Positions 1-34,235 of a stretch of 38,531 bases of DNA are shown here, piece after piece. Position numbers and translations under genes: made by a program. Below the pieces are notes generated by a model. That model saw nothing but the letters and a program-made list of their open reading frames with translations, did no database searches and was not told where the DNA came from. The DNA comes from a virus. The stretch lies in IMG/VR virus record IMGVR_UViG_3300044797_000271, positions 1 to 38,531 of that record. One strand, 5' to 3'. How positions within the stretch are numbered: position 1 is the stretch's first letter; each line of letters starts with the position of its first letter.

Positions 1-636
1 AGCGGGGCCGAAGGACTGTACGCTGGTATTTTGGACGCTATTACTGGTGCAGTTATTTAGGACAACATTGTTTCCGAGAAGATAATCTCCGCTATTACTG
101 CTGTTTTGATAAATCCAAACTGGCTCGTATGTTGGAATCCATGGCCATGGATTGGTTGGCGATGGTGGCGTATATTTAGGATAATGGTGGTGATGATGTT
201 CTTCTACCCTGACTGGTGGATTGATCCTAATGGGCTCCACATGTCCTTCGACAAAGACAGCGGCAGCAATGATACCACGGTTAGACAGATCGCCGTGAGT
301 ATGGATCGCCACACTGTTATCGGCACTGGTAAAAACGAAACCAGCTCCTCCATTATTGTTTTCCGGCCAAGCTTTGAGAGATAGAGTATCATAGCCATTG
401 ACTACCCACATATCTTTGGATGGAATGGTATCGGCTGGCTTGCCAGTCAGAACATCAGTGCCATCGACACTTATGATAACCTGAACTTTTTGCCAAGTGT
501 GGTTCTTGAAACGGACCTCAAAGGGCTCATCGCCCCAAGCTCCAACCGTTTCGATCCCTTCTACGTAGTATTTTTTCAATGACTTGCCGTTGAATTTAGG
601 GTGGTGCGAAATGATTTCTAAGGTGTAATTTGACAT
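1..636 (-). CDS. Partial phage protein of unknown function, possibly virion-associated
   Basis: An open frame runs from an ATG at 636 to the window edge without a stop, so the C-terminus lies outside. The start is supported by an AGGAGA Shine-Dalgarno about 6 nt upstream and by a GATATATAA motif at 673-681. The roughly 212 visible residues are rich in beta-forming and aromatic residues (for example GAWGDEPFEVRFKN and NNGGAGFVFTSADN). They are followed by a His run, a Pro/Trp-rich stretch and an Asn/Ser-rich repetitive tail near the window edge. There is no signal peptide or membrane segment. The sequence style suits an extracellular or virion surface protein, and the next genes are sugar-modifying enzymes, but I recognise no family and the function is not established. 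Confidence 0.75.
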   Translation of the reverse strand, partial: MSNYTLEIISHHPKFNGKSLKKYYVEGIETVGAWGDEPFEVRFKNHTWQKVQVIISVDGTDVLTGKPADTIPSKDMWVVNGYDTLSLKAWPENNNGGAGFVFTSADNSVAIHTHGDLSNRGIIAAAVFVEGHVEPIRINPPVRVEEHHHHHYPKYTPPSPTNPWPWIPTYEPVWIYQNSSNSGDYLLGNNVVLNNCTSNSVQNTSVQSFGPA

Positions 637-4782: not shown

Positions 4783-5400
4783 TCAGGAAAGTTTCTCAAA
4801 CAACTTGTCATCACCCTTGCAATGCTCTTTCAATTTATCAAACCAGGCTCTGGATTTGATCTTGAACATAATGGGCATTCTGGTTAGTTTATCATTAGCC
4901 CCTTTACAAACTACACCTTCATAGGTCATCCCCGGAAGGGTAGATTGTTTTACTCTATCAAATAAATCTGTGGTCACATGGCCCTCATAACAAACTTTGG
5001 GTATATCCAAATGTCTAAACAGCTTGATAAACTCGGTCGGAACTAATATACCCTCTTTATATGGATTGACATCAATCAAAGTGATATCCATTTTTTCATC
5101 GAAATTATGATTGCCAGCAAAAGAACTTGGGCCCCAATACTCGAAAAAACACAGGGCATCCTTCCACTTTTGCTCTCGAAAGACCATTGCCAAATCTTCT
5201 TCATACTTTTCTTTGAGTAAAGGGATAGCTCGCCCAAATGGCATAGTCTTCTCATCTGTCAATTGATTGCGAGTGCCAAATTTATAGAACCCGCGTTTGG
5301 AATTCCATTCCGCACGAATATTGGATCCATCTAACTTATCGAAAGCATAAATGTAAATATCGTGTCTAATTTCTTTGGTAATAGAGGGGTATGATTTCAT
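4783..5400 (-). CDS. RNA ligase (Rnl2-like nucleotidyltransferase)
   Basis: About 205 residues, the size of a bare ligase catalytic domain. Motif I is DKLDGSN, with Lys22 the expected adenylated residue. RGFYKFGTRN, CFFEYWGPSSFAG, YEGVVCKG (motif IV) and MFKIKS (motif V) follow in the normal order. Enzymes of this type seal 5'-phosphate/3'-OH nicks in RNA, and T4 Rnl2 is the reference. There is no C-terminal extension. I chose the ATG at 5400; an in-frame GTG lies 6 nt upstream. No clear Shine-Dalgarno is visible, and the start abuts the T-run of a terminator-like hairpin. A second, diverged ligase lies at 29827-30507. The likely role is RNA (tRNA) repair, which is inference. Confidence 0.85.
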   Translation of the reverse strand: MKSYPSITKEIRHDIYIYAFDKLDGSNIRAEWNSKRGFYKFGTRNQLTDEKTMPFGRAIPLLKEKYEEDLAMVFREQKWKDALCFFEYWGPSSFAGNHNFDEKMDITLIDVNPYKEGILVPTEFIKLFRHLDIPKVCYEGHVTTDLFDRVKQSTLPGMTYEGVVCKGANDKLTRMPIMFKIKSRAWFDKLKEHCKGDDKLFEKLS

Positions 5401-5404
5401 CAAC

Positions 5405-5429
5405 ACAAAAAGCCATCTTATAAGACGGC
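5405..5429 (-). terminator. Intrinsic terminator-like hairpin after groES
   Basis: The minus strand reads GCCGTCT-TATA-AGATGGC followed by TTTTTG. That is a 7-bp stem with one G-U pair, a tetraloop and a U-run. It lies between the GroES stop (5455) and the RNA ligase start (5400). Confidence 0.7.
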
Positions 5430-5772: not shown

Positions 5773-6289
5773 ACTTGCTGTCGGCTTCAATAATTCTAAT
5801 CAATTGCTCGAAGGTAAATTTGATTTTTTTACGGTCGCATACTTCATCAAATCGAATATCAAAAGAATAAACTTTCTCATAATCAGAAAAATCCATCCCT
5901 TTGATTTTGAGGACTTGACAGGCACGCTTGATAATAGAAATTGGAACTACCTCATCCTCGTGCAAACATTCTTCTTTGGCAATATTTAGAACCTTGATTT
6001 TTAGATTATTGAAATATAATCTTTTATACTTATCTAATTTTGAGGGATCCCAATTATATTGCTTACAATACTCAAAGAAAGGTTTATTACCTCTTCGATT
6101 ATTACAATCTGCACACGAAACGGTTAGATTAGTAGTGTTGAAGGTTCCCCTTTTACTATCAGGAAGAATATGTTCCATAGTGACGGTATCAGTTGTCAAT
6201 ACTTTATCGCAATAGCAGCAAAGCATTCCATCTCGGTCGATGACATACTCCTTGATGCGTTTTTGTCTTTTGCGTTCGGGGGCACCCAT
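5771..6289 (-). CDS. HNH endonuclease
   Basis: A 172-residue protein with a zinc-type HNH module: CCYC near residue 24, MEHILPDSKRG (catalytic His) near 44-54, and CADCNNRRGNKPF near 65. The C-terminal 90 residues show no known domain. The N-terminus is strongly basic (RKRQKRIKEY), as in DNA-binding endonucleases. It sits between groES and the phosphatase gene and may be a free-standing homing endonuclease, one of at least six HNH genes here. The weak ribosome site leaves the exact start slightly uncertain. Confidence 0.85.
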   Translation of the reverse strand: MGAPERKRQKRIKEYVIDRDGMLCCYCDKVLTTDTVTMEHILPDSKRGTFNTTNLTVSCADCNNRRGNKPFFEYCKQYNWDPSKLDKYKRLYFNNLKIKVLNIAKEECLHEDEVVPISIIKRACQVLKIKGMDFSDYEKVYSFDIRFDEVCDRKKIKFTFEQLIRIIEADSK

Positions 6290-6306
6290 ATGATCTCGTT
6301 TATCGA

Positions 6307-6978
6307 TTAGCGTAAATGTGCATAATCATTTACGGTGAGTAAACGCCAGCCTTGTGGGCCAAAATGAAGTTTACTAATTGAAGTGTTTTCCAAGGTCAAT
6401 TTCCAAATAAAACTCTGGTCAAATCCCATAATATAATGTAGCAAACATTTGATAGTCATTCCGTGAGAAAAAACGAAAAGCTTCATCGGTTTGAGGCCGG
6501 CAGCATTTCTATCTGTGGCTTCTTTGATGATATCCTTATTATAAAGAATACTATCTTCCAGCCACTGAGAAGCTCGGCGCTCTACCATGTGCATGGATTC
6601 GCCATTGGGCGGAACGAACCCACTGGTCATAGCAGCCATACGTAATAACGTAGGCATATTATGAACTTCGCTACGCTTAGCTTCGTTCCAATCACCCGCA
6701 CTGTATTCCCTCAATTCAGAATGAAAGGTGGGATGTATACTCAATTTAGGGCCTTGTGATAAAGCAATGATGCAAGTCTCCGATGCTCTCAGCAAGTCCG
6801 AGGAATAAACGTGAGCAATCTCTTTCTTTGTTATTCTCTCTCCCAAAAGGCGCGCCTGGTTCATACCTTTCAGTGTTAGCTTAGTATCACCTCTCTGGCC
6901 TACCATATCTGGTATCACATTTACTTCTGACTGTCCATGACGACAGAGATACAAATGGAATTCATTATATTCTAGCAT
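6307..6978 (-). CDS. Histidine phosphatase (phosphoglycerate mutase-like)
   Basis: About 223 residues, starting at ATG 6978 with GAGGT upstream. The catalytic RHG motif is LCRHGQSEVN near residue 14, followed by the second Arg region YSSDLLRASET, the Glu region HSELREYSAGDWNE and the second catalytic His in FSHGMTIKCLL. These are the four elements of the histidine phosphatase superfamily, which acts through a phospho-His intermediate. The substrate is unknown; sugar phosphates or nucleotides are possible. The upstream neighbour was originally the small membrane protein at 8146-8520, from which it is now separated by TnpB copy 1. Confidence 0.88.
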   Translation of the reverse strand: MLEYNEFHLYLCRHGQSEVNVIPDMVGQRGDTKLTLKGMNQARLLGERITKKEIAHVYSSDLLRASETCIIALSQGPKLSIHPTFHSELREYSAGDWNEAKRSEVHNMPTLLRMAAMTSGFVPPNGESMHMVERRASQWLEDSILYNKDIIKEATDRNAAGLKPMKLFVFSHGMTIKCLLHYIMGFDQSFIWKLTLENTSISKLHFGPQGWRLLTVNDYAHLR

Positions 6979-7097: not shown

Positions 7098-8201
7098 ATG
7101 CTTCTAACAACCTCCATTAAACTGCTTGCTACCGATAACCAGAAGAAAAGTCTTCTGAAGTCTATGTATCAGTTTAATGCAGCTTGCAACTGGATTAGTG
7201 AGTTTGCTTTTGCAAACTCAATGTTTAGCAAAGTCAAGTTGCAAAAAGCGATCTACTATGAGTTAAGAGAGAAGTTTTCTCTGCCATCTCAGTTTGCTAT
7301 TAGGATTATTAGTAGGGTTGCAGAAAGCTATAAAGTAGATAAGAAAATTCAGCATTTTTTCAAAAAGACTTCTTCTGTAGAATACGATCAGCGTATTCTC
7401 AACTGGAAGAAATTAGATACCATTAGTATTCTTTCGTTGGATGGCAGGCTAACCATTCCAATTGTCTTCGGTTCCTATGCTAAACTAACCGAGAGAGTTA
7501 TTCGCAACTCTGCCAAACTTGTTTATCGACAAGGTCAGTTCTATCTACAAGCGGTAGTAGAGGTGCCAGAGGCTAATCTGCAAGAGACACAAGACTTTCT
7601 GGGGGTGGATCTGGGTATCGTCAATCTGGCTACTACTTCGGAAGGTCAATCGTATAGTGGAAAACAAGTAGATAATAACCGAGAACGATATACGGGTCTC
7701 AAGGCAAAGTTGCAGTCGGTAGGCACAAAATCAGCTAATAGGCATCTCAAAAAGATTTCAGGTCAGGAGAAAAGGTTCAAAAGAAATACTAATCATATTA
7801 TTAGCAAACAAATTGTTTCGGCGGCAAAGGCACTTGGAAAAAGTATAGCTTTAGAAGATCTATCTGGTTTCAAGAGAACGGTTCGCAAAGCACAACGAGA
7901 ACGATTTGGCAAGTGGGCATTCGGTCAGTTAGCGGCATACATAGAATATAAGGCTGCTATTGCAGGTATTGAGGTGGTCAAGGTTGACCCCAGAAATACC
8001 AGCAGAACTTGTTTTGAATGCGGTCATTGCGAAAAACTAAACCGCAAAAGTCAAGCGGTTTTCAAGTGTAGGTCGTGCAACTTCTTCGGAAATGCCGATC
8101 TCAATGCTGCGAAAAACATTGCAGCAAGAGCCTTTGTCAATAGGCTTATTGTTTCGGGACAGCCCAGGAACAAGCCGACGACTTTAGTCGTCGGTCATTG
8201 A
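7098..8201 (+). CDS. tnpB: TnpB RNA-guided nuclease, copy 1
   Basis: A 367-residue TnpB (IS605 OrfB), the compact ancestor of Cas12. The RuvC catalytic residues are all present: D171 in FLGVDLGIVNLATTS, E253 in IALEDLSGF and D334 in GNADLNAAKN. The zinc finger cysteines C305, C308, C324 and C327 are intact (TCFECGHCE... FKCRSC). TnpB uses an omega-RNA from the element's right end to cut DNA next to a TAM, which retains the element at its empty donor site. The reading frame runs through the right-end hairpin and stops at the element boundary. It is roughly 85% identical to copy 2 by eye. The gene looks functional. Confidence 0.95.
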   Translation: MLLTTSIKLLATDNQKKSLLKSMYQFNAACNWISEFAFANSMFSKVKLQKAIYYELREKFSLPSQFAIRIISRVAESYKVDKKIQHFFKKTSSVEYDQRILNWKKLDTISILSLDGRLTIPIVFGSYAKLTERVIRNSAKLVYRQGQFYLQAVVEVPEANLQETQDFLGVDLGIVNLATTSEGQSYSGKQVDNNRERYTGLKAKLQSVGTKSANRHLKKISGQEKRFKRNTNHIISKQIVSAAKALGKSIALEDLSGFKRTVRKAQRERFGKWAFGQLAAYIEYKAAIAGIEVVKVDPRNTSRTCFECGHCEKLNRKSQAVFKCRSCNFFGNADLNAAKNIAARAFVNRLIVSGQPRNKPTTLVVGH

Positions 8202-25759: not shown

Positions 25760-26866
25760 TCAATGACCAACGGCTAAAGCCGTTGGCTTGCTGCTCGAAG
25801 ACTTCTCGGCTGCAATAAGCCTATTGACTAAGGCTCTTTCGGCAATATTGATTGCCGCATTGAGGTCTGCATTCATACTATGATAGCAGCTCCTACATTT
25901 GAAAACCGCTTGACTTTTGCGGTTTAGTTTTTCGCAATGACCGCATTCAGAACAAGTTCTACTAGTATTGCGTGGATCAACTTTGACCACCTCAACTCCA
26001 GCAATAGCTGCCTTATAGATAATATAAGTTGCTAACTGATTGAATGCCCATTTGCCAAAACGTTCTCTCTGACTCTTCCTAACGGTTTTCCTGAAACCAT
26101 GCAATTCTTCTAATGCGATGGCTTTCTGGTGCCTTTGAGCAGATTGAACAATTTGTTTGCTAATAATATGATTAGCGTTTCTCTTGAATCTTCCTTCTTG
26201 TCCTGATATTTTTTTCAGATGTCGTTTTGCATTTTTGCTACCGTTAGATTGTAATCTAGCTTTGAGTCCTGCATATCTTTCTCTAACTGTATCCACTTTC
26301 TTACCAGAATAAGTATCGCCTAATGAAGTGGTAGCTAAATTGACGATACCTAAATCAACTCCGAGAAAGTCTTGAGCCTCTTGCAATTTAGATTCAGGCA
26401 CTTCTACGGCTGCTTGCAAGTAGAAACAGCCTTGACGATAGATAAGTTTGGCAGAATTGCGGATAACTCTTTCATCAAGTTTGGCATATGATCCAAAGAT
26501 AATCGGAATAAGAAGCCTACCATCTAAAGAAAGAATGCTAATTTGATCTAATTTTTTCCAGTTAAGAATACGAGCATCATATTCCACAGATGATGTTTTC
26601 TTGAATTGATGCTGTATCTTCTTATCAAGTTTGTAACTATCAGCTACACGAGATAAGGCACGAATAGCAAACTGAGCTGGCAAAGAAAACTTTTCTCGTA
26701 GTTCATAATAGATAGCTTTTTGTAGCTTGACCTTGCTAAACATAGAGTTAGCAACTGCATATTGACTAATCCAGTTGCAAGCCGCATTGAATTGATACAT
26801 TGACTTCAAAAGACTTTTCTTTTGGTCATCGGTAGTCAAAAGTTTGATGGAAGTAGTTAGAAGCAT
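25760..26866 (-). CDS. tnpB: TnpB RNA-guided nuclease, copy 2
   Basis: A 368-residue TnpB closely similar to copy 1. The catalytic residues are intact: Asp in FLGVDLGIVNLATTS, Glu in IALEELHGF and Asp in MNADLNAAIN. The zinc finger is TCSECGHCE...FKCRSC. Differences from copy 1 are spread over the protein and mostly conservative, as expected for two functional paralogs. The gene ends inside the right-end hairpin, which differs from copy 1 by compensatory base changes. A CGATATATAACC element precedes the start. Confidence 0.95.
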   Translation of the reverse strand: MLLTTSIKLLTTDDQKKSLLKSMYQFNAACNWISQYAVANSMFSKVKLQKAIYYELREKFSLPAQFAIRALSRVADSYKLDKKIQHQFKKTSSVEYDARILNWKKLDQISILSLDGRLLIPIIFGSYAKLDERVIRNSAKLIYRQGCFYLQAAVEVPESKLQEAQDFLGVDLGIVNLATTSLGDTYSGKKVDTVRERYAGLKARLQSNGSKNAKRHLKKISGQEGRFKRNANHIISKQIVQSAQRHQKAIALEELHGFRKTVRKSQRERFGKWAFNQLATYIIYKAAIAGVEVVKVDPRNTSRTCSECGHCEKLNRKSQAVFKCRSCYHSMNADLNAAINIAERALVNRLIAAEKSSSSKPTALAVGH

Positions 26867-29126: not shown

Positions 29127-29839
29127 ATGTCTGAACGACACATAATTTATGGACTTTTAGATCCAATTACTAAAATAATACATTATGTAGGCTACTCTTC
29201 CAACGAAAAGAAAAGAAAAGACTTTACGATCATTGCTATCACAAAAACGGCACCAAAGAAAAACGTATTTGGATCTCGCGTCTTAAAAAACAAGGACTAC
29301 AACCAATTATGGAAGTAATTCAAGAATACTTAACTGCCGAGGAATTGCCAGAGGCAGAAAGATTCTGGTTCGAATACTTCAAATTAGTTGGCGCAGAACT
29401 ATACAACGACCCTCATTATGTTGGCGGCGGCTCAATGAAAGGCAGAACACATACGGAAGAAACTAAACTCAAACTACGAATAAAACGCACAGGCAAGACG
29501 CCTATGAAGGGGAGGACACATACCAAAGAATCTAAACAAAAGATAAGTCATTCAAATAAAGGTAGAACATCGCCCAATAAAGGAAAGTCTCCTACCAACG
29601 AGGTTAGATTGAAAATTAGTAATTCATTGAAAGGAAAACCATCAACAAGAAATGGTAAAACTTGGAAAATGATTGAGGGTAAAATAATTTGGTTTAATAA
29701 ACCAAATGCCACAGAAGGACAACAACAATGTAATAAGTGTGCAAAAATAAAACTATTAGAAGAATTTTATTTCACAAACGCAACACATACAAAACGAAAG
29801 GGAATGTGCAAAATATGTTGCAAATCTCATTCCCAATAA
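29127..29839 (+). pseudogene. Frameshifted GIY-YIG homing endonuclease
   Basis: The first frame (ATG 29127) encodes the GIY-YIG start, RHIIYGLLDPITKIIHYVGYSS, then goes out of frame in the A-rich stretch near 29205-29222. The second frame continues the domain as LYDHCYHKNGTKEKRIWISR, then EVIQEYLTAEELPEAERFWFEY (catalytic Glu) and NUMOD3-type repeats (GRTHTEETKLKLR, GRTHTKESKQKIS). It ends in a CNKCAK...CKICC zinc finger. One missing A would restore KKRKRLYDHCYHK. So this is a single-base frameshift: a dead gene, a sequencing error or a slippage site. It is on the opposite strand to most genes. Confidence 0.82.
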
Positions 29840-30507
29840 TCTGCCCACTTATCAGGATGATATTCTTTTAATCGTTTTAAATATTCATTCGTCTTGACTT
29901 TACACATATAAACTTCGCCATCCACTACGCCTTTGATGACAACACCCTCATCGACATTATAGTGGCCTTTACGCACTTTTTCTACAAAACCTCCGTAGAA
30001 CTTACCGTTGTAAACAAGGTTAGGCATCCAGTCGCTGATACCATAAAAATCCCAGCGTAGTTTTCCTGGGAACAACATTTTACCATCTACTTGAACATCA
30101 ATTAGGTAATGAGTTTTCTTATCTTCTCTCTGATGTTGACCAGCAAAAGAATGAGGCCCCCGAAACTCCGTAAAAAGAATAATCTCTGAGATTGAATCTG
30201 ATTTATTTAGATTTAGAAAATATCGCCCATACTCTTTCATCAAAACATCATCTAGTTTTTCAATAATTGGGTCGCCGAGAAAAGTAGAGACAACTTCTTC
30301 TAAACCGGGGTGCGCTACGTTGAAGTCTCTCTCGCCATCCGCAGTTAGTGGAAACCTATCACGACGAGTTCCAAAAGCATAGAACTTGTCTTTTTGATTC
30401 CAGCACCAATGGATATTAGTGCCGTCTAGTTTCTCATAAGCCCAACATTTTTTGAGCGGACAGTTTTTACTGTCGGTCATTTTAGGATAAACAAGAGGCA
30501 TTTTCAT
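29827..30507 (-). CDS. RNA ligase, second copy (Rnl2-like)
   Basis: A 226-residue protein. The motif I lysine is in YEKLDGTN (K26). It is followed by FYAFGTRRDRF, LFTEFRGPHSFAGQHQ (motif III region), VDEGVVIKG (motif IV) and YMCKVKTNEYL (motif V). The order and spacing match the 4783 ligase, but sequence similarity is modest, so the two are old paralogs or were acquired separately. It seals RNA nicks by adenylyl transfer. The gene lies immediately downstream of the RNase P RNA (12 nt from its 3' end to the start codon). The 3' end overlaps the convergent GIY-YIG pseudogene by 13 nt. Confidence 0.88.
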   Translation of the reverse strand: MKMPLVYPKMTDSKNCPLKKCWAYEKLDGTNIHWCWNQKDKFYAFGTRRDRFPLTADGERDFNVAHPGLEEVVSTFLGDPIIEKLDDVLMKEYGRYFLNLNKSDSISEIILFTEFRGPHSFAGQHQREDKKTHYLIDVQVDGKMLFPGKLRWDFYGISDWMPNLVYNGKFYGGFVEKVRKGHYNVDEGVVIKGVVDGEVYMCKVKTNEYLKRLKEYHPDKWADYWE

Positions 30508-30518
30508 AGTTGAAACCT

Positions 30519-31023
30519 GGAAGAAGTAGCTTTATAAGCGGAGTCCTGTCTATAAAGCGAGACAATCATTAATCTGGACCAACAATTACTTGTTGGTTCA
30601 AGCACTAACCCGAGAGTATCGACCACACAAGTCACTCTCTGTTTAGCTTGCAGCACCTGGGGTTTGCCTAGCCATCAATGTCACCATTGATGCGGTAGTC
30701 TATTACACTGCCATTTCACCCTTACCGAGTTCAAGAATGCGGCAAGATAAAAAGAACAATAATTGCTCCCACTATCAAAACCGTTCGAAAAAAGTATTTA
30801 CGAAAGTAAGACGACTCTAATAACAAGGGTAACAACACTAGTGTTATTATCATTGCCAAACAGGCGCCTATCATAAGACTTAATATATTCATTCTCAAAC
30901 TCGGCGGTATCTTTCTGTTGCACTTTCCATCGCATCACTGCGTCTGGCCGTTAGCCAGCAGGTCGTGTTATGCTGCTCCGACTTTCCTCTCCTTACGGAG
31001 CGATTGCCCAAGCTGCTTCTTCC
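30519..31023 (-). ncRNA. rnpB: RNase P RNA (bacterial type A-like) with ORF in P12
   Basis: The minus strand carries the conserved blocks of bacterial RNase P RNA in order. These are GAGAGGAAAGTC (CR-I), GCTGGCTAACGGCCAG (P7-P10 region), GTGCAACAGAAAGATACCGCC (CR-II/III), GGTAAGGGTGAAATGGC (CR-IV start), GGCAAACCCC, GTGCTTGAACC...GGTCCAGATTAATGATTG (CR-V region) and ACAGGACTCCGCTTAT near the 3' end. P1 pairs GGAAGAAG-c-AGCTT at 31023 with AAGCT-a-CTTCTTCC ending at 30519. RNase P removes tRNA 5' leaders. P12 is enlarged by about 160 nt and holds an ORF; without it the RNA is about 345 nt, a normal size. The 5' end overlaps the 3' end of the 30993 gene. Confidence 0.95.
30731..30892 (-). CDS. 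Two-helix membrane protein encoded within the RNase P RNA P12 loop
   Basis: A 53-codon ORF. The predicted protein has two transmembrane helices, ILSLMIGACLAMIITLVL and TVLIVGAIIVLFIL, joined by a charged turn (ESSYFRKYFFR). The start codon lies at the end of the 5' strand of P12 (30890-30904) and the TGA stop in the 3' strand (30725-30739), so the ORF fills the P12 apex exactly. The only ribosome-site candidate is a weak TTGAGA 3 nt upstream. The clear membrane-protein pattern argues against chance. A small holin- or spanin-like or regulatory peptide is possible, but the function is unknown. Confidence 0.65.
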   Translation of the reverse strand: MNILSLMIGACLAMIITLVLLPLLLESSYFRKYFFRTVLIVGAIIVLFILPHS

Positions 31024-33281: not shown

Positions 33282-33355
33282 TGGTTGGGGAACTTGGTAT
33301 CGATCCAAGGTGATCGCTTTCAGAGAGCGACATAATGCCATTATATGATTCCCCA
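33282..33355 (-). tRNA. tRNA-Gln(CUG)
   Basis: 74 nt, acceptor TGGGGAA/TTCCCCA with encoded CCA. The anticodon arm is TCGCT-CTCTGAA-AGCGA. The T-arm CTTGG-ATCGATA-CCAAG has an A at the first T-loop position. Its CCA end is directly followed by nucleotide 1 of the next tRNA. Confidence 0.88.
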
Positions 33356-33381: not shown

Positions 33382-33897
33382 CTAAGTTTTATAAGCTTTA
33401 TTTCTGCCCGAAAAACTTTCCGTTTGTGAATGACAGTTAGGGCATAACAGCCTTAAATTACTTATCCTATGATCATCAGATACACCATTAATATGATCCA
33501 GTTGAAGAGACAATGGCATATTATTCCACTGCGCGGATAAACCACAAATATAGCAGTGATTAGTTATTAAACCTTCTTTTATAAGCCTCTTTTTAAGACG
33601 AGACCTATTATCGTAAGTGGAATGCTCTATCAAAATCTCTGATAGGGGCTGACCTTTTATTCCGAAAGAGCGCCCTTTATTAGCCCCTACCCCTAAACGG
33701 ATATGTGTTATATCTATACCATCTTCTGCGAGGCGAGCTTTCAAAATCTTATACATGCCAGCCTGATTGCAAAATCCAAAATGTGTCAAGATAGCATTTA
33801 GCGATTGACTGACAGCAGCCACTTGCACTAACTCTTCTTTAGAAATTTTCCAGATTCTGCTTCGCTTTTTTCGAAGCTTAACGATAACATCGCTCAT
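33382..33897 (-). CDS. HNH homing endonuclease
   Basis: A 171-residue protein. N-terminal basic helices (KLRKKRSRIWKISKEELVQV) resemble a helix-turn-helix DNA-binding domain. The core is CYICGLS...LQLDHINGVSDDHRISNLRLLCPNCHSQTESF, a complete zinc HNH. The late FSGRNKAYKT ending is typical of this phage endonuclease group. It is flanked by tRNA genes on both sides, a common niche for such elements. Confidence 0.92.
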   Translation of the reverse strand: MSDVIVKLRKKRSRIWKISKEELVQVAAVSQSLNAILTHFGFCNQAGMYKILKARLAEDGIDITHIRLGVGANKGRSFGIKGQPLSEILIEHSTYDNRSRLKKRLIKEGLITNHCYICGLSAQWNNMPLSLQLDHINGVSDDHRISNLRLLCPNCHSQTESFSGRNKAYKT

Positions 33898-33932: not shown

Positions 33933-34032
33933 TGGTCCGGGTATACAGATTCGAACTGTAATTCACGGATTCATTTGTGCGAGCAATATGCTCCTGCAAA
34001 AGTCCGCTGTCCTGCCTTTGGACGATACCCGA
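33933..34032 (-). tRNA. tRNA with 26-nt insert in the anticodon loop (Gln UUG or Lys UUU)
   Basis: 100 nt. All arms are in standard register: acceptor TCGGGTA/TACCCGG with encoded CCA, D-stem GTCC/GGAC, anticodon stem GCGGA/TCCGT, variable GAAT, T-arm TACAG-TTCGAAT-CTGTA. The anticodon loop is 33 nt instead of 7. Removing 26 nt gives CTTTGAA (Gln UUG) or CTTTTAA (Lys UUU), depending on the cut sites. The insert holds a hairpin GAGCA-TAT-TGCTC. It is far too short for a group I or II intron. Confidence 0.7.
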
Positions 34033-34072
34033 ATATATCTTGCTAACTACTATATCTACTTATTACTATGTT

Positions 34073-34174
34073 TGGTACCTCGCTAAGGAATCGCACCTTA
34101 TTCTCTGTCCGTGCCAACTTTGTTTTCAGCGCCACAGTAAGACAGCCAGCAGAGATTATTTCGAGTTGCGAGGT
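34073..34174 (-). tRNA. tRNA-like element with enlarged body
   Basis: 102 nt with a perfect 7-bp acceptor (ACCTCGC/GCGAGGT), encoded CCA and a T-arm (TAAGG-TGCGATT-CCTTA). A 5-bp stem CTGTC/GACAG at the right distance from the T-arm could be the anticodon stem, enclosing a 31-nt loop. The D-arm is not canonical. Either a disrupted or intron-bearing tRNA, or a decaying one. Amino acid not assigned. Confidence 0.45.
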
Positions 34175-34235
34175 ATAAAAATTTACTCAATCGGCAAAAC
34201 CAACTAGATGCATCCTATTGCGGTTTGCCGTGAGT
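34175..34235 (-). terminator. Terminator-like hairpin after tRNA-Ala genes
   Basis: The minus strand pairs ACTCA-c-GGCAAACC with GGTTTTGCC-gat-TGAGT around a loop containing GATGCATC, followed by AAATTTTTA. It lies 5 nt downstream of tRNA-Ala(GGC). Confidence 0.6.

Follow-up and report, generated by a model that had tools for sequence, protein, structure and literature searches.

How can a tRNA gene with an anticodon loop of 33 nt give rise to a functional tRNA? The question is raised by a gene at 33933..34032 on the minus strand of the virus record IMGVR_UViG_3300044797_000271. The record is linear, 38.5 kb long (38,531 nt; hereafter the window, which is the whole stretch of DNA that we analysed), represents a fragment and comes from an uncultivated large phage. 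Its minus strand carries about 20 tRNA genes. Here we describe the interrupted gene, its counterparts in related and other phages and a possible way in which the interruption is removed.

The interrupted tRNA gene and its neighbours

The RNA is read from 34032 to 33933. Its acceptor stem UCGGGUA/UACCCGG has a U-G wobble at the 1-72 pair and is followed by A73 and an encoded CCA. After the linker UC come the D-arm (GUCC/GGAC, loop AAAGGCA), a single A and the anticodon stem GCGGA/UCCGU, which encloses the 33-nt loop CUUUUGCAGGAGCAUAUUGCUCGCACAAAUGAA. The variable loop GAAU and the T-arm UACAG UUCGAAU CUGUA complete the molecule, and all stems pair. The Rfam tRNA model RF00005 matches over its full length (positions 1-71) with 44 bits (gathering 29; E=6.5e-10), and the minimum-energy fold is a full cloverleaf with an extra inserted hairpin (z -2.75). 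Hence, the initial annotation, which described arms in the standard register around a 33-nt loop, is borne out. Default ARAGORN makes no call at this site; with introns allowed it calls the tRNA with a 26-nt intron.

Removal of 26 nt after U34 or U35 leaves CUUUGAA, a Gln loop, and removal after position 36 leaves CUUUUAA, a Lys loop. With the cut after U35 the insert occupies 33973-33998 (-), and with the cut after U34 it occupies 33974-33999 (-). Inside it the minimum-energy fold forms the hairpin GAGCA-UAU-UGCUC (33981..33993, -) with 5 bp and a 3-nt loop. This fold and the 7-nt loop of the syntenic copy described below confirm a 26-nt insert with a hairpin of its own, as originally proposed.

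Gene order is conserved between the window and two other records, IMGVR_UViG_3300045741_000433 (63 kb; G024) and IMGVR_UViG_3300036715_004471 (447 kb; G031), with protein identity of roughly 38-76% between matched genes; G024 is the closer one. The minus-strand order in G024 is Ala(UGC), Ala(GGC), Gln(UUG), Gln(CUG), then GCGGAAGAGTG and an HNH_3 gene. This order recurs in the window, except for an HNH gene between both Gln genes and the insert in Gln(UUG); its tRNA-Gln(CUG) (33282..33355, -) is intact, and its flank GCGGAAGAGTG is common to both records. In G024 the tRNA-Gln(UUG) is uninterrupted, with the 7-nt loop CUUUGAA that excision restores in the window, and the site between the two Gln genes has neither the insert nor the HNH gene. 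G031 likewise has an uninterrupted tRNA-Gln(UUG) with the loop CUUUGAA at the corresponding syntenic place. Because of these syntenic copies we identify the window tRNA as tRNA-Gln(UUG). When the anticodon is masked, Gln accounts for each of the four nearest tRNAs and for 19 of the top 50, compared with 6% of the set. Of the two identities considered initially, Gln or Lys, the former therefore stands, and Lys is rejected by synteny. The interruption is evidently of recent origin, and the perfect stems argue against decay of the gene over a long time.

A strict screen for interrupted loops (four perfect stems, GG in the D-loop, U33 and a loop of 17-70 nt) over 4.8 Mb of loci returned 12 distinct cases including the window tRNA, and none in the reversed-sequence control. 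Neither near DNA matches nor exact patterns of the window tRNA were found in the phage and viral collections, and no second phage with its exact insert was found there. At the site Rfam gives the tRNA match only, with no group I or other ribozyme, in agreement with the earlier argument that 26 nt is too short for self-splicing and calls for enzymes.

The HNH gene (33382..33897, -) lies between tRNA-Gln(UUG) and tRNA-Gln(CUG) and starts 35 nt downstream of the interrupted tRNA. It encodes a homing endonuclease of 171 aa, which matches PF01844 above the cut-off (1.6e-6) and phrog_10822 (4.7e-43). Among 80 relatives of this protein, 51 have an adjacent tRNA, which is Gln(UUG) in 20 of the 51 and Leu(UAA) in 15 of the 51; the background shares of these tRNAs are 3.8% and 3.4%, respectively. 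Judged by these neighbourhoods, the family is one of tRNA-gene-associated homing endonucleases. It presumably cleaves within the anticodon loop. The empty site in G024 is consistent with an enzyme that would cut the uninterrupted tRNA-Gln gene but spare the interrupted one. In the phage locus L028 a member of the same family follows a tRNA-Gln(UUG), which is itself interrupted after U35 by a 45-nt mini-tRNA. The mini-tRNA lies exactly between CUUU and GGA and consists of the acceptor GCAAGAC/GUCUUGC, the T-arm UAUGG-UUCAACU-CCAUA and then GCCA. In L415:1597-2214 (+) a tRNA is split at the anticodon loop by an HNH gene together with a complete tRNA-Leu(UAA), and this HNH gene shares the signature CPNCHSQTETF with the family of the window.

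Several other features of the window were observed. A tRNA-like RNA at 34072-34180 (-) has a 7-bp acceptor, the T-arm UAAGG-UGCGAUU-CCUUA and ACCA; it has no recognisable D-arm, a long stem-loop closed by 6 bp replaces the anticodon arm, and neither Rfam nor ARAGORN calls it. A gene for elongation factor Ts is present in the phage at 10159-11079 (-; Pfam 4.2e-47). Two OrfB/TnpB-like ORFs of near-equal length lie on opposite strands at 7098-8201 (+) and 25760-26866 (-). A search for relatives of the thymidylate-kinase-like protein neighbouring the window tRNA returned none.

tRNA-like and hairpin inserts in other viral tRNAs

Viral contigs were scanned for two T-arm/CCA units 12-22 nt apart, with figures from the listed matches taken as lower bounds, and loci were searched for an outer cloverleaf with an inner acceptor, an inner T-arm and NCCA. 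There are at least 26 distinct nested inserts, of which at least 25 are viral and one (L456) lies on a short contig binned as Methanobrevibacter, plus further variants. Among the matches listed, the inner acceptor pairs at 7 of 7 positions in 26 of 26 inserts, although the search required only 6 of 7. When the outer loop length is left free, 26 of the 30 tRNAs with any solution, among the matches listed, give exactly 7 nt, all with U33. Other solutions leave 5, 9 or 11 nt, and we take most of them to be these same tRNAs in a stem register shifted by one position. The restored anticodons include UUG, UAA, UUU, UAU, UUC, UAG, GUU, UCC, UCU, UGU, GAA and UGG.

An independent and complete scan for the mini-tRNA signature gave 23 stretches. 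In 13 of them the inner acceptor pairs 7/7, and each of these lies within an outer tRNA whose loop keeps 7 nt; the search yielded no outer tRNA for the remaining 10, several of which read as ordinary class II tRNAs. Five copies of a Glu-tRNA show a compensatory change in the anticodon stem across the insert, TTGGC/GCCAG versus CCGGC/GCCGG. One insert family is present in both Lys and Gln tRNAs, which suggests mobility. The edges of the tRNA-like inserts coincide with RNase P and CCA-end sites. We consider the genetic evidence for this class strong; splicing of its members, as of the window tRNA, is inferred. A blastn comparison of the nested tRNAs with isolate phages gave no match covering 80% of any query.

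The inserts form a series of sizes. Minis of 44-50 nt consist of acceptor and T-arm only, and those of 58-63 nt add a D-arm-like stretch. Inserts of 67-78 nt are tRNA-sized, many with an anticodon arm that appears degenerate by eye, and the longest forms without an ORF have 115-123 nt. In three inserts of 465, 586 and 852 nt, ORFs take the place of the anticodon arm: the ORF in L419 is HNH_3 (Pfam 3.1e-9), that in L380 is GIY-YIG-like when read with TAG as Gln, and that in L352 is HNH-like as judged by eye. In L336:2123-2273 (+) a canonical complete tRNA-Gly(UCC) is nested in the anticodon loop of tRNA-Asn(GUU), so that two functional tRNAs possibly arise from one gene.

The first pattern scans returned mostly tRNAs with long variable arms, and we retained no candidate whose outer stems were imperfect. 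With a loose mini-tRNA detector the shuffle rate was high (17 seen, 9.5 expected), and the flush-boundary test took its place. The 93-nt tRNA-Ile of Vibrio phages was rejected as a short-insert candidate, as it has a long variable loop.

The window insert has no flush 7-bp acceptor, T-arm or NCCA, and the nested-tRNA tests do not detect it. It shares with the tRNA-like class the intact outer cloverleaf and the 7-nt loop with U33 that is left after excision. Thus it is not a proven member of that class and groups with a smaller number of simple hairpins inserted into tRNAs that otherwise pair well. A 32-nt hairpin insert in tRNA-Asn with perfect outer stems occurs on two separate contigs, L099 and L356. 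Probable further hairpin inserts lie in a tRNA-Thr of L028 (22 nt) and in a tRNA-Phe of the relative G024 (8 nt). The Asn tRNAs of L224 and L537 have inserts without CCA that look intermediate between the two kinds, and both kinds are present in the L028 and G024 phages. The hairpin kind may be a reduced tRNA-like form, a repair scar or a separate intron.

Unusual tRNA-related arrangements were also seen outside these two kinds. A family of tRNA-like RNAs in tRNA arrays (L117:1462-1581 (+), L185:564-682 (+), L193:4994-5113 (-), L200:3384-3503 (+) and L211:400-515 (+)) has an acceptor, a D-arm and a T-arm, and the conserved core ATCCTGATAAGGATA...TTCCA replaces the anticodon arm; no Rfam tRNA match was seen for them. 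In the array at L135:5500-6600 (-) several tRNAs seem to hold T-arm/acceptor pieces of others in permuted order. At L399:4585-4650 (+) and many similar viral loci there follows, within 12-22 nt of a complete tRNA, an orphan 3' half of a tRNA, for which no 5' half was found nearby. A phage tRNA array in L128 contains a ROOL RNA (323 bits) and an OLE-like fragment (5852-6477 (-) and 187-276 (-)). Several SAR86 genomes (L425, L431, L433, L444, L459, L472, L491 and L498) share a double T-arm/CCA arrangement of 60 nt, which may be a truncated tRNA conserved in tandem.

Proposed cut-and-seal mechanism and its rivals

We judge it moderately probable that the 26-nt hairpin inside the anticodon of the window tRNA-Gln(UUG) is a small tRNA intron, which is cut out and sealed by a ligase and was probably acquired with the neighbouring HNH gene. 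The HNH family would target tRNA genes and make a break in the anticodon loop. Repair of the break with an insert would leave a tRNA gene that the HNH enzyme could no longer cut. The transcript would then be cut at both edges of the insert, the tRNA halves would stay together through the intact cloverleaf, and an ATP-dependent (Rnl2-like) ligase of the phage would seal them to CUUUGAA. In the wider phage family the insert would usually be a tRNA-like module whose ends are sites of RNase P and CCA-end maturation, and the window insert would be a reduced or different hairpin version. Seen directly are the gene with its insert, the empty sites, the adjacent HNH gene, the RNase P RNA, the ligase-like genes and the wider family; the homing role, the cutting enzyme, the sealing and the decoding function we infer.

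The window encodes candidates for both activities. At tRNA-like inserts RNase P would cut before the acceptor and 3' tRNA maturation would cut after CCA, leaving 3'-OH and 5'-P ends, the substrate of ATP-dependent ligases. A phage-encoded class A RNase P RNA (30519..31019, -; RF00010, 251.6 bits) with a long insert of roughly 120 nt in the P12 region is the candidate cutting enzyme. The records of L028, L096, L030 and L074 contain it too, and RNase P RNA is above the cut-off in only 5 of 48 records. The gene of the candidate sealing enzyme, an Rnl2-like RNA ligase of 226 aa with the motif KLDGTN (29827..30507, -), starts 11 nt downstream of the RNase P RNA gene on the same strand; it matches phrog_548 RNA ligase (6.5e-8) and reaches 18.0 bits with PF09414, below the cut-off of 27. 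A second Rnl2-like ligase of 207 aa (4783..5406, -; phrog_548, 2.5e-10) is 72% identical to an ORF in G031 and scores 19.1 bits with PF09414, below the same cut-off of 27. A search of solved structures with the window ligase returned nothing. ORF listings of four further records with RNase P RNA show no ligase beside its gene, and the pairing in the window is only suggestive of a cut-and-seal kit.

None of the 29 insert-bearing records has RtcB, which is what 3'-OH and 5'-P ends would lead one to expect. Ligases of the Rnl1 or Rnl2 type are frequent in these records and about equally common in control large phages (19 of 30), so no enrichment was found. The cut-and-seal mechanism is weakest for the window's own hairpin insert, where, with T-arm, flush 7-bp acceptor and NCCA missing, excision by RNase P has no direct support. 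We put forward a broader proposal only tentatively. Phages may harbour mobile introns of an undescribed class, in which tRNA-like modules occupy the anticodon loops of other tRNAs; the modules are mini-tRNAs, D-arm-bearing tRNAs or full tRNAs, and in some of them homing-endonuclease-like ORFs replace the anticodon arm. RNase P and 3'-end maturation would excise the modules, phage RNA ligases would seal the gap, and the window hairpin would be a pared-down descendant that relies on RNase P RNA and ligase encoded by the phage itself.

The best surviving alternative, which we regard as unlikely, is that the gene is dead or dying. In this reading the HNH enzyme broke the anticodon loop and imprecise repair turned the break into a scar of 26 nt; the pseudogene persists only briefly, and the phage or host relies on a different tRNA-Gln. 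The single known copy of the exact insert, the adjacent HNH gene with the empty site in G024 and the absence of the tRNA-like ends of the main class all agree with this. However, all stems are perfect, CCA is encoded and the insert itself is a clean hairpin, and small hairpin inserts with perfect outer stems recur in other phages (L099 and L356), with probable 8-nt and 22-nt ones in relatives.

It is less probable still that the enlarged loop is never removed, its use being that of a regulatory RNA or of a decoy or shield that protects from the host's anticodon nucleases. The inserts are located exactly in the loop that such nucleases attack, and loop changes have been proposed to let phage tRNAs escape them (PMC10264068). 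A decoy needs no precision, whereas a loop of exactly 7 nt with U33, which the tRNA-like class leaves in 26 of 30 cases among the matches listed, is expected only if the insert is removed.

The fold of the insert bears on an intron of archaeal or eukaryal type, in which a tRNA splicing endonuclease would cleave a relaxed bulge-helix-bulge (BHB); we find this very improbable. The anticodon bases do pair with the insert in a 4-bp helix UUUG/CAAA that has internal loops on both sides. These loops are 2x4 and 3x3 rather than two opposed 3-nt bulges, cutting as the BHB rule prescribes would give a loop of 10 nt, and RtcB is found in 0 of 29 insert-bearing records; the search for a canonical BHB, suggested at the outset, thus ended negatively. 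An assembly or sequencing artefact is hardly credible, since the insert, known from a single metagenomic contig, is a clean hairpin exactly in the loop of a tRNA with perfect stems and analogous inserts occur in independent assemblies (L028 and L548; L099 and L356).

Relation to known systems and significance

Enzymatic splicing of short tRNA introns is regarded as an archaeal and eukaryal trait. The window tRNA resembles archaeal and eukaryal BHB introns in its short anticodon-loop insert, its intact outer cloverleaf and the need for cutting and ligation. However, it belongs to a bacterial virus, has no canonical BHB, and its insert lies inside the anticodon (34/35 or 35/36) and not at 37/38. 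The phage records also have ATP-dependent Rnl2-like ligases instead of RtcB, and many of the phage inserts are tRNA-like. Bacterial group I introns also interrupt the anticodon loop and are mobile, often with homing endonucleases, but a length of 26 nt (or, for inserts lacking an ORF, 44-123 nt) falls far short of a ribozyme.

In T4-like phages free-standing homing endonucleases are reportedly encoded beside their presumed target, with an empty site in a relative. The window HNH gene shows the same arrangement, while its target is apparently tRNA genes and the insert lies in the tRNA rather than at a simple flanking site. T4 Pnkp/Rnl1 repairs tRNAs cleaved in the anticodon loop. As in our proposal, a phage ligase seals an anticodon-loop break, but here the break would be programmed by the insert and not made by a host anticodon nuclease. 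mascRNA and other tRNA-like structures are released by RNase P and RNase Z through precise cuts at tRNA-like ends. The nested phage tRNAs would be cut in the same way, whereas the flanks of mascRNA are not rejoined into a tRNA; the comparison holds for the nested class and is not established for the window insert.

Within the open PMC library, no account was found of phage tRNAs that are nested or have short inserts in the anticodon loop. A huge-phage survey called tRNAs with tRNAscan-SE and does not mention introns in its text, a jumbo-phage review treats ligases as repair enzymes, and the text of the paper on phage tRNAs evading anticodon nucleases has no intron, insertion or splicing terms (PMC10264068). 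The whole or miniature tRNAs that interrupt viral tRNA genes are apparently a new kind of intron, one that would require enzymes for cutting and re-joining.

Phage tRNAs are undercounted by standard finders, because default ARAGORN missed the window tRNA and nested tRNAs are called only with introns allowed or only as the inner tRNA. If the interrupted tRNAs of phages work only when cut and re-joined, there would be a further splicing route, in which ordinary tRNA-processing enzymes act together with phage ligases. The RNA ligases that large phages encode, for which repair is usually the sole explanation, would then have another job, and the route by which homing endonucleases colonise tRNA genes would become visible.
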